From assembly GCF_018139545.1 (NCBI RefSeq), contig NZ_JAGSPJ010000006.1, forward strand, positions 62,001-126,000: a stretch of DNA of 64,000 bases, given 5' to 3'. Shown here piece after piece: positions 28,976 to 55,261 of the stretch. The first letter of the stretch is position 1; every line of letters begins with the position of its first letter. The notes beneath the pieces are model-generated. The model worked only from the letters and a program-made list of their open reading frames with translations. It made no database searches and had not been told where the DNA came from. The translations under genes and the position numbers were made by a program. The DNA comes from Affinundibacterium fentianense. Lineage in GTDB: Bacteria; Pseudomonadota; Gammaproteobacteria; Burkholderiales; Burkholderiaceae_D.

Positions 28976-29054
28976 TATTTACTCTGAATAGTTGAGTTGA
29001 ATTGATGTTTGCTACGAATTGCGACTTTTTCGCTAAATCAAAATGCGAACCTAA

Positions 29055-29171
29055 GATGCTTCAGAAATTCAATTTCAGGGATGCTGCGCTAGGCGCGCAC
29101 CGGAGCAATACGTCGGTATTGCGAGGATGCGCAACAACGCGAAGCGCCCTGCAATTGGATTTATGAACATC
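29055..29171 (-). ncRNA. Structured 3'-UTR element after yebC (family copy A)
   Basis: A 117-bp inverted-repeat element that begins six bases after the yebC stop on the transcribed (minus) strand. Outer arms (GATGTTCATAAATCCAATTG / about 20 complementary bases at 29055-29077) enclose a conserved core: GGGCGC..CGCGTTGTTGC, CCTCGCAATAC, four bases, GTATTGCTCCG, GCGCCTAGC, GCATCCC. The core is shared, in the same sense relative to the gene, with the element after pyk (54974-55071), while the outer arms differ in sequence but stay self-complementary. It may be a structured RNA, a terminator-like 3' end or a mobile REP-like repeat; function unknown. Confidence 0.6.
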
Positions 29172-29177
29172 TCAATC

Positions 29178-29903
29178 TTATTCTTCGATGATCGCATTGG
29201 TAAATACTTCCTGCACGTCATCGAGATTTTCTAATGCATCAATAATTTTCTGCATCTTGATCGCGTCTTCGCCTGTGAACACGGTTTCAGTTTGCGGCTT
29301 CATCACGACTTCTGCCACTTCTGGTTTGAATCCTGCTTTTTCTAAGGCATCTTTCAGTGCTGACAAATCATGTGGTGGGCAAGTGACTTCGATACCGCCT
29401 TCATCATCCGTGATCACATCATCTGCACCGGCTTCTAATGCTGCTTCCATCAGTGCATCTTCATTTGTGCCTGGGGCAAAAAACATTTGACCGCAATGCG
29501 TAAACAAGAACGCCACTGAACCTTCGGTACCCATATTGCCGCCATACTTATTAAATGCATGACGCACTTCAGCCACCATACGCACACGATTATCCGTCAT
29601 ACAATCAACGATAATCGCCGCACCGCCGATACCATAACCTTCGTAACGCACTTCTTCATAGTTAGCACCTTCCAAAGTACCGGCACCACGTTGAATCGCA
29701 CGCGTGACGTTTTCCTTCGGCATATTGGCATCTGCTGCTTTATCCACAGCCAAACGCAAACGCGGGTTGGAATTGACATCTTCGCCGCCCATGCGTGCTG
29801 CAACCGTGATTTCTTTAATCAAGCGTGTCCAGATCTTGCCGCGCTTTGCGTCGGTCGCTGCTTTTTTATGCTTGATATTGGCCCATTTACTATGTCCTGC
29901 CAT
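29178..29903 (-). CDS. yebC: YebC/PmpR family regulatory protein
   Basis: 241 residues, beginning [20 protein letters not shown], the invariant YebC start; an upstream in-frame ATG at 29927 would add eight residues and is less likely. Further family stretches: [54 protein letters not shown] and the acidic C-terminal [15 protein letters not shown]. YebC proteins have been described as transcriptional regulators and, more recently, as factors that relieve ribosome stalling at proline-rich stretches. It is first in the minus-strand run yebC-purD-hemF-nadD-rsfS. Confidence 0.95.
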
Positions 29904-30182
29904 GATTGCTCTTTCTAAAATTGGCAATCCTTTGCACCTATTGCCGATTACCCATTCTTTATGAGTACTTGTTCAAGGTAATTTTTATCATTCGCTAACA
30001 ATTCAGACATGTCGCGATGGAAACTTTGCAAAGGATTGGTTTTATAATGAAGACCGCTATTCTAACATAGAGCACTTAGGCAAAACCGCGCGCAAGAAGC
30101 CGAACTAGCTTGGTTTGCACAAGTTTTCTACAATTGATTCGAATAATTATCTCTTTCCGCCTATTTATAAGCCGAGTAAACC

Positions 30183-53540: not shown

Positions 53541-54971
53541 ATGTTACGCGGAACCAAAATTGTAGCGACAGTAGGCCCGGCATCCAGTGATCTGGATACT
53601 TTAGTTAGTATGTTAAAAGCTGGTGTGAATGTGGTTCGTTTGAACTTCTCACACGGCAAGGCACAGGACCATATTGATCGCGCTGCACTGGTACGTAAAG
53701 CGGCAGAAGTCTGTGGCATTGAGATCGCGATTATGGCGGACATGCAAGGTCCGAAAATTCGTATCGGTAAATTTGAAAACAGTAAAATTCAAATTGAGAA
53801 CGGCGATAAATTTATTCTCGATGCAGACTGTGCTTTAGGTAATCAAGAGCGTGTCGGACTCGATTACAAAGCCTTGCCGCGTGATGTTAAAGCAAACGAC
53901 GTATTGCTCCTTAACGACGGTTTGATCGTCTTGATCGTCGATAAAGTGGTGGGTAACGAGATTCACACCACAGTTAAAATTGGTGGTGAACTGTCGAACA
54001 ACAAAGGTATTAATCGCCAAGGTGGTGGTTTAACTGCACCCGCATTGACGGCAAAAGATATGGAAGACATCAAAACAGCGATGTCTTTCCAAGCCGATTA
54101 TTTGGCGATTTCTTTCCCCAAAAATGCGACAGATATGGAAATGGCGCGCCAGTTAGCGAATATCGCAGGTGAGCCTTACGGCCACAAGCCGATGATGATC
54201 GCAAAGATTGAACGTGCAGAAGCGATACCGGTGTTGCAAGAGATTTTGGATGCGTCAGACGGCATTATGGTCGCGCGTGGTGATTTGGCGGTAGAGGTGG
54301 GTAATGCAGCGGTTCCTGCTTTACAAAAACGTATGATCAAGATGGCGCGTGCATCGAATAAATTGACGATCACAGCGACGCAAATGATGGAATCGATGAT
54401 CGTCAATGCCGTGCCAACCCGTGCCGAAGTCTCTGACGTGGCCAACGCCGTATTGGATGGTACAGATGCGGTGATGTTGTCGGCGGAAACGGCGTCAGGC
54501 AAATATCCGGTAGTGACAGTGGAAACCATGGCGGCGATTTGTATCGAAGCGGAAAAGCACCAAGAGTGCAAACTTGATGCTGACTTTTTGAATTTGCAAT
54601 TCACCCGGATTGATCAATCGATTGCCTACGGTGCTTTGTTTACAGCGCATCATTTACGGGTGCAAGCGATTGCGGCGTTGACTGAATCCGGTTCAACTGC
54701 ATTGTGGATGAGTCGCCAAAGTATCGACGTGCCTTTGTTTGCCTTGACACCAAGCGTGGCGACTATGCGTAAAGCAGCCTTGTACCGCAATGTACAGACC
54801 TTCAAATTGCCGTACAACCCAGATCGCGATTTGGTTTTGCAACAAGCAGAAAACGTCTTGTTAGAAAAAGGTGCGGTGAAGAAGGGCGATTTAATCGTTG
54901 CGACTTGGGGTGAGCAAATGGGTAAGGTGGGTGGTACCAACGCGATGAGGATAGTAAAAATCGGCGAATAA
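53541..54971 (+). CDS. pyk: Pyruvate kinase
   Basis: 476-residue enzyme converting phosphoenolpyruvate and ADP to pyruvate and ATP. RGTKIVATVGPASSD, VVRLNFSHGKAQDH, the catalytic MIAKIERAEA (Lys) and MVARGDLAVEVG (metal Glu/Asp), and LTITATQMMESMI are all intact. The C-terminal allosteric domain is present and ends WGEQMGKVGGTNAMRIVKIGE. A clear GGAGA ribosome-binding site precedes ATG. A structured repeat begins two bases after the stop codon. Confidence 0.97.
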   Translation: MLRGTKIVATVGPASSDLDTLVSMLKAGVNVVRLNFSHGKAQDHIDRAALVRKAAEVCGIEIAIMADMQGPKIRIGKFENSKIQIENGDKFILDADCALGNQERVGLDYKALPRDVKANDVLLLNDGLIVLIVDKVVGNEIHTTVKIGGELSNNKGINRQGGGLTAPALTAKDMEDIKTAMSFQADYLAISFPKNATDMEMARQLANIAGEPYGHKPMMIAKIERAEAIPVLQEILDASDGIMVARGDLAVEVGNAAVPALQKRMIKMARASNKLTITATQMMESMIVNAVPTRAEVSDVANAVLDGTDAVMLSAETASGKYPVVTVETMAAICIEAEKHQECKLDADFLNLQFTRIDQSIAYGALFTAHHLRVQAIAALTESGSTALWMSRQSIDVPLFALTPSVATMRKAALYRNVQTFKLPYNPDRDLVLQQAENVLLEKGAVKKGDLIVATWGEQMGKVGGTNAMRIVKIGE

Positions 54972-54973
54972 AT

Positions 54974-55071
54974 AAACTGATTTTTAGGGCGCATTGCGTT
55001 GTTGCAAAGCCTCGCAATACTAGTGTATTGCTGCGTTTTGCGCCTAGCACTGCATCCCTAAAAATCAGTTT
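54974..55071 (+). ncRNA. Structured 3'-UTR element after pyk (family copy B)
   Basis: 98 bp bounded by a perfect 16-base inverted repeat (AAACTGATTTTTAGGG / CCCTAAAAATCAGTTT). The core reads GGGCGCATTGCGTTGTTGC, CCTCGCAATAC, TAGT, GTATTGCTGCG, TTTTGCGCCTAGCAC, TGCATCCC and matches the element after yebC in the same sense relative to the gene. The central GCAATAC/GTATTGC hairpin is perfect. The outer arms share no sequence with copy A except GGG/CCC. Could be an RNA structure, a 3'-end stabiliser or a REP-like mobile element. Confidence 0.6.
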
Positions 55072-55142
55072 CTTAGCAGTGCCGAATTAGAAGAGTAACG
55101 AACACGATTCAAACAGCCGAAGTCAAAGGCCACAAGCTTAAA

Positions 55143-55261
55143 GAAGTGCTGAGTAAGCGTAGCGAGCGGTCACAGTTTGGATTGAGAAGCGCAGCTGTAC
55201 TTGAGTACAGCGAGCATCGCCAATTCAAAATGTGGTCGCGCAGTAGCTTAATCAGCATTTC
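55143..55261 (-). repeat. Third, diverged member of the same palindromic family, upstream of fba
   Basis: 119 bp with outer arms GAAGTGCTGAGTAAGC / GCTTAATCAGCATTTC (14 of 16 pairs), a second stem about 19 bases long (CACAGTTTGGATTG / CAATTCAAAATGTG) and a central hairpin CTGTACT-TG-AGTACAG. On the minus strand the order GATGC-TCGC-hairpin-GCTGCG matches the core of copies A and B, so it is an inverted relative. It ends 33 bases before the fba start, with the fba ribosome-binding site (TTTGGAGT) just beyond. Confidence 0.55.

Follow-up and report, generated by a model that had tools for sequence, protein, structure and literature searches.

The window, i.e. the whole 64,000-nt stretch of DNA that was analysed, contains two copies of a 104-nt palindromic unit, each placed just behind a protein-coding gene. 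One copy (54972..55075, plus strand) follows pyk, pyruvate kinase by its NCBIfam name (53541..54971, plus strand), and the other (29061..29164, minus strand) follows yebC, YebC in NCBIfam (29178..29927, minus strand). The pairing runs on beyond the 104-nt unit into site-specific outer arms, up to the stop codon. At pyk the 5′ half of the arm (AAATCGGC, 54958..54965, plus strand) lies within the last codons of the gene and the 3′ half (GCCGAATT) is located at 55081..55088 (plus strand). At yebC the 5′ half (AGATGTT, 29166..29172) and the 3′ half (AGCATCT, 29054..29060), both on the minus strand, score five of seven pairs, which is below the cut used for the arm mismatch counts reported below. 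Including its arms the hairpin-forming repeat comprises about 125 bases.

The initial annotation had placed both elements directly after stop codons in the same orientation to the gene, and the sequences are as claimed. Its further statements that the cores are nearly identical base for base and that the outer arms pair with themselves were confirmed by the alignment of the two copies as one common 104-nt unit without gaps and by 16 uninterrupted outer pairs in the pyk copy. The fold z-scores were -7.63 for the pyk copy and -5.71 for the yebC copy, with 0 of 200 shuffles folding equally well in each case, and the core pattern was matched twice in the window against 0.00 matches expected. The annotated covariation of the arms was likewise recovered: in the first five copies 98.4% of the cells are paired and changes on both sides occur in 14 of 37 pairs, and 0 of 500 shuffles matched either value.

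The repeat family and its position behind genes

A covariance model was built from the first five copies and was used to search the own genome (G000) and relatives. The 29 model matches in the own genome correspond to 22 places once 7 opposite-strand re-hits are removed. At 21 of these 22 places the copy lies in sense and starts from 4 nt before to 14 nt after the end of the stop codon; the exception (L023) is internally shortened and has no clear host gene. The host genes are mostly housekeeping genes. When 20 upstream proteins were scanned with NCBIfam, 15 scored above the curated cut-off (YebC, ArgB, Pyk, RpsJ, acyl-CoA mutase, GcvH, PurH, Ffh, PrfB, Icd, thiolase, AhcY, PheS, HolA and enoyl-CoA hydratase), four gave strong matches below it (ParE, which is cut at the locus edge, acyl-CoA dehydrogenase, carboxyltransferase and glutamate dehydrogenase) and one was without match. 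The gene upstream of L018 is thereby named release factor 2, prfB, and rpmH was recognised by eye as a further host gene. Downstream, the next ORF lies on the same strand in 18 of the 22 own copies by the longest-ORF rule, and the rpsJ copy precedes an apparent rplC (by eye). The stops of 67 copies from five genomes are TAA in 52 cases, TAG in 9 and TGA in 6.

Both window copies are members of a dispersed palindromic family of the genus Undibacterium, with model matches in 12 of 13 genomes of the genus (own genome included) and in one of eight other genomes of the order. In a second set, eight further genomes of the genus all gave matches, two of them a single one; G007, which is included in this set and was already counted in the first, again gave none. 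The positions of copies of 95-130 nt were counted, with sRNA-like matches beside pyk left out and the copies of relatives taken from the best matches listed per genome. The same choice of copies underlies the arm, target-duplication and motif counts given below. Among these best matches, 62 of 69 copies in five close genomes have a sense stop no more than 15 nt away, and not one is near an antisense stop only. The corresponding counts among the best matches listed are 20 of 37 in G025 (3 antisense only; many of the others are later units of tandem arrays), 2 of 4 in G004 and 3 of 7 in G006, and 90 of 123 for the window-type copies of 11 genomes together, with 4 antisense only. Random orientation, which had been named beforehand as counter-evidence, was not seen. 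The finding is more general than first stated, and concerns one clade's palindromic repeat that is bound to stop codons in one orientation.

Several observations were made on the arrangement of copies and on related elements. Tandem head-to-tail arrays of units behind one stop, with a period of about 98-124 nt, occur at L253 (G009) and at L452, L455 and L465 (G025). At L457 (G025) the icd stop is directly followed by a second unit, and behind this comes the older copy with the arms typical of icd, as though new copies were inserted at the stop. A distinct longer subfamily is present in G005 (L043, L054, L319), with one copy about 700 nt from a Y1 transposase gene. A loose core pattern was matched by at least 118 stretches, mainly from Betaproteobacteria among the matches listed; the listed stretches show the four neighbour-ORF orientations 17, 14, 13 and 12 times, with one stretch lacking a left ORF and 26 lying too near a sequence end for an orientation to be assigned. 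Also among the matches listed, L062-L141 form a much broader family of larger palindromic elements that share the motif GTTGC...GCGCCTWGCNCTGCATCC; the elements come mainly from Betaproteobacteria and also from Spartobacteria contigs, and many of them look two-lobed with conserved ends.

A transposon-like sister subfamily and retention at orthologous loci

In G011 inverted ends of the sequence GGKAACTTCT flank the same core, and 4-bp direct repeats were found at the predicted place in 12 of 18 of these sister copies, compared with 5% for mispartnered ends. The transposon-type ends of this subfamily read GGGAACTTCT. With one mismatch allowed, the end motif GGKAACTTCTRAAAAC was matched 39 times in G011, 28 times in G006 and twice in G010, and 0 times in both G000 and G002. 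In G006 many of the matches are no more than about 120-215 nt away from the end of a contig and continue into a longer repeat that has these same ends, which is what a transposon that interrupts assemblies would be expected to show. Near sense stops only 6 of 48 copies of the sister subfamily were counted among the best matches listed.

The window subfamily differs on these points. Its arms vary by site, so that terminal inverted repeats common to the copies are found in the sister subfamily and not in the window subfamily, and a target duplication was detected in 0 of 67 window-type copies; a single window-type copy, at parE of G025, has a CTAG repeat by eye. The window-type arms resemble the transposon ends weakly: an equal likeness is reached by 26 and 13 of 500 shuffled ends. 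The family looks transposon-derived, given the inverted ends and 4-bp target duplications of the sister subfamily; because the window subfamily shows no duplication and only weakly end-like arms, its own transposon descent rests on the shared core. As judged from these sequence features, the palindromic family most likely descends from a miniature inverted-repeat transposon (MITE), and the stop-bound repeat is probably MITE-derived. The mobile palindromic element with a taste for 3′ ends, one of the roles proposed in the initial annotation, gains ground through the transposon-type ends and duplications of the sister subfamily.

Automatic grouping yielded 38 loci, of which 25 are occupied in at least two species. 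The mean identities over species pairs, which come from global alignments and are to be read without a random baseline, are 0.87 for the last 150 nt of the coding sequence, 0.83 for the unit, 0.79 for the 5′ arm, 0.74 for the 3′ arm and 0.61 for 40 nt of 3′ flank; the unit is thus nearly as conserved as the coding end. Between orthologues the outer stem shows 59 double changes and, as single changes, 24 to A·C, 18 to G·U and 29 of other kinds, counted over overlapping species pairs. Empty sites exist in relatives, the clearest one at prfB, where the element is present in G000 and G002 (internally deleted in the latter) and absent from 18 other genomes; in the nearest species the empty prfB sites have alignable sequence up to the next gene. 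At icd the stop is followed first by the unit and then by a terminator-like hairpin with a T-run; this hairpin also occurs in species without the element (both by eye). Insertion into a pre-existing terminator hairpin is disfavoured, as the empty prfB, icd, ffh and argB ends of relatives are without such an inverted repeat directly after the stop by eye; as the outgroups are diverged, this makes such an insertion less likely but not impossible. Window-type copies are found at the parE stop in three genomes; two genomes have other members of the family there, and two have an unrelated palindrome. This unrelated palindromic repeat (TTTGCCGCAGAGGCGCAGA...) is located at L350 (G010) and L352 (G009).

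Pairing of the arms and strand asymmetry

The arms pair best with their own partner, with a mean duplex energy of -9.0 kcal/mol compared with -5.0 kcal/mol for mispartnered arms (68 copies), and non-covarying arms, the other outcome named in advance as counter-evidence, were not seen. Under Watson-Crick-only scoring the pairing most often extends outwards as far as the final base of the stop codon or the base that follows it (25 of 67 copies). For the mismatch counts each sequence context was used once and arms with fewer than six net pairs were left out. On the mRNA strand 53 arms contain 24 A·C and 1 G·U mismatches; 10 and 1 were counted in 21 arms of the later-fetched G025, and 7 and 1 in 8 arms of G006 and G004. 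The pooled window-type copies at stops have 31 A·C, 3 G·U and 33 mismatches of other kinds, and the ratio of 31 to 3 has a binomial p of 3.8e-7 if the contexts are independent. For transposon-like copies the counts are 3 A·C and 5 G·U in G011 (14 arms) and, pooled, 8 A·C, 6 G·U and 10 others. Mismatches of other kinds are as frequent as A·C, and the same near and far from the unit.

An A·C mismatch on one strand is a wobble pair on the opposite strand. The tolerance of G·U over A·C that marks an mRNA element folding in sense was not found in the site-specific arms, and their asymmetry is the reverse of the expectation for a selected mRNA fold; it is evidence against a simple selection for the mRNA helix. 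Covarying positions are commonly regarded as proof that an RNA fold is under selection. In this repeat compensatory changes are abundant at dozens of loci in several species, yet the wobble in the outer arms points off the transcribed strand. The step from covariation to a selected mRNA fold, which the initial annotation had taken, is weakened because of this asymmetry. The asymmetry is compatible with a fold of the opposite strand and also with avoidance of pairing in sense, and since other mismatches are as common as A·C, "G·U avoided" fits the counts equally to "A·C tolerated". Mutation bias as a cause of the excess of A·C over G·U is argued against on general grounds. Comparing A·C with G·U by strand offers a cheap general test for palindromic repeats.

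Within the unit the strand picture is mixed. The outer stem of 57 copies contains 762 Watson-Crick, 13 G·U, 9 A·C and 14 other cells. Columns 7/96 of these 57 units read C·A in 43, T-A in 11, C-G in 2 and C·C in 1, and columns 19/83 read C·A in 46; T·G never occurs at either position. Columns 3-12 have 5 A·C and 5 G·U, and the inner stems lean to G·U; because the inner-stem pairs were defined on the sense fold, their G·U counts are biased and carry no weight here. Fold energy is lower on the opposite strand in 46 of 57 units, and the consensus folds with -40.4 on the opposite and -35.1 on the sense strand, whereas the pyk copy with its flanks folds better on the sense strand. The transposon-like copies of G011 also fold better on the opposite strand, in 14 of 18 units, so that this preference of the unit is not tied to genes. 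In related elements of other genera, which lie in mixed orientation to genes, 26 A·C and 12 G·U were counted.

Possible roles and comparison with known elements

The explanation that we tentatively prefer is a MITE-derived repeat that is kept as a stop-proximal 3′-end hairpin and is placed like the stop-proximal REPs. The dispersed palindromic family would derive from a MITE, and in one Undibacterium clade a subfamily would have become a fixture of gene 3′ ends, in which two arms, each about 10 nt long, enclose the 104-nt unit; the whole lies in sense, begins at the stop codon or shortly after it and, in the case of icd, precedes the putative terminator. By analogy, copies may have been kept since a long hairpin directly behind the stop could have a cis effect at the gene's 3′ end; stop-proximal E. 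coli REPs are reported to have such an effect, either by slowing terminating ribosomes or by stopping 3′ exonucleases. The strand asymmetry might arise if pairing of the arms is maintained on the opposite strand or, as another option, if it is renewed in DNA by hairpin-templated copying while selection acts against stable sense pairing near the stop. The units could also stay alike through gene conversion between copies, without any function.

Gene conversion or hairpin-templated copying would also renew the pairing if the copies were functionless relics of old MITE insertions, with their place behind stops reflecting an insertion preference or the survival of harmless insertions. The almost purely Watson-Crick outer stem, the orthologue double changes that are about as common as single ones, the tandem arrays and internal deletions, and the reuse of the parE stop by several palindromes are consistent with relics. 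Symmetric DNA processes predict equal numbers of A·C and G·U, however, where 31 and 3 were observed; random insertion predicts both orientations, where 62 sense and 0 antisense copies were observed among the best matches listed for the five close genomes; and the sister subfamily, which does have target duplications, is rarely at stops. On this evidence functionless relics appear doubtful rather than improbable. The asymmetry in turn would be explained directly by a fold kept on the strand opposite to the gene, either as a single-stranded DNA hairpin for a recombinase or transposase or as an antisense RNA ending at the stop, in which case placement and orientation would follow from a strand-specific chemistry, like that of an attC or REP substrate without the element being either. 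This is an unlikely reading. The excess of A·C over G·U in the arms, including G025 as well as G006 and G004, the C·A columns 7/96 and 19/83, the lower consensus energy of the opposite strand and the similar lean of the elements from other genera argue for it. Against it, selection on the opposite strand should purge other mismatches, which are as frequent (33) as A·C (31); columns 3-12 are balanced and the inner stems, defined on the sense fold, lean the other way; and the transposon-like copies of G011 share the fold preference. Moreover, neither attC boxes (0 of 88 copies) nor a regular vicinity to Y1-transposase loci (1 of 26 scanned) was found, and antisense transcription is not obvious because the next ORF lies on the same strand in 18 of 22 copies. 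A domesticated transposon-derived palindrome whose fold is maintained opposite to the mRNA, as DNA hairpin or antisense RNA, with arms re-tuned for each gene, is quite unlikely, and no precedent for a strand-specific 3′-end element of this kind was found in the open literature that was searched.

A strong hairpin directly behind the stop is also what an intrinsic transcription terminator would provide, and a transcript end was among the roles named in the initial annotation. Terminator-like sites were absent from the base of either window hairpin, the one predicted site being an inner tip hairpin, and 15 of 88 copies have a T-run after the unit, compared with 11% of control stretches. The separate terminator-like hairpin beyond the element at icd, the same-strand ORFs downstream and the rpsJ copy before the apparent rplC likewise speak against this role, and a family of intrinsic terminators is very improbable.

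Among known systems, the stop-proximal REP is the closest analogue in placement, as far as the available text of PMC12306157 and PMC2817692 goes. For E. coli, the available text of PMC12306157 cites Liang, Rudd and Deutscher (2015) for 260 of 496 REPs located no more than 15 nt behind a stop codon. Both REPs and the Undibacterium repeat are dispersed palindromes with many copies within 15 nt behind stops. Unlike REPs of 14-40 nt, the Undibacterium repeat has a 104-nt unit plus arms, GTAG is present within 30 nt of its 5′ end in 3 of 88 copies only, and almost all copies of the subfamily lie in sense at a stop codon. Mobilisation by a RAYT is unsupported: of 30 Y1 loci obtained, 26 were scanned after four belonging to other families or genera had been set aside, and one of the 26, in G005, has a copy nearby. 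The genus contains occupied sites, empty sites and a transposon-like sister subfamily side by side, which makes it testable why REP-like palindromes gather at stops.

The likeness to a MITE lies with the sister subfamily, in which the same core has GGKAACTTCT ends, 4-bp duplications and, in one genome, a longer repeat with the same ends; the window subfamily is unlike a MITE in its site-specific arms, its missing duplications and the lack of those ends in its own genome. Integron attC sites carry the R boxes RYYYAAC and GTTRRRY at the base of the hairpin. The Undibacterium repeat is similar to attC as an imperfect palindrome right behind a stop, in fixed orientation to the gene and with the opposite-strand fold favoured. 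It is variable outside and conserved inside, unlike attC, and lies at chromosomal core genes and not at cassettes; neither R box was found in the outer 25 nt of either strand in 88 of 88 copies. The Correia elements of Neisseria are palindromic MITEs in a betaproteobacterium, and some resemblance of their core to the Undibacterium repeat is seen by eye only. Searches of the open literature for the string CTCGCAATAC and for Undibacterium palindromic repeats gave no related work as apparent from the titles listed, and no report of a MITE located directly behind stop codons was found there.

Rfam covariance models gave no match in the window at curated scores; at a low threshold the element received weak chance-level matches, none of them convincing, and a scan of 19 related loci returned two tRNAs and nothing else. 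Between pyk and the next gene, window positions 55147-55217 (minus strand, facing pyk) weakly match the Xanthomonas sRNA family sX9, with 27.8 bits against a curated cut-off of 44 and an E value of 0.0034. Stretches matching this region are also present beside pyk in G002, G008 and G010.
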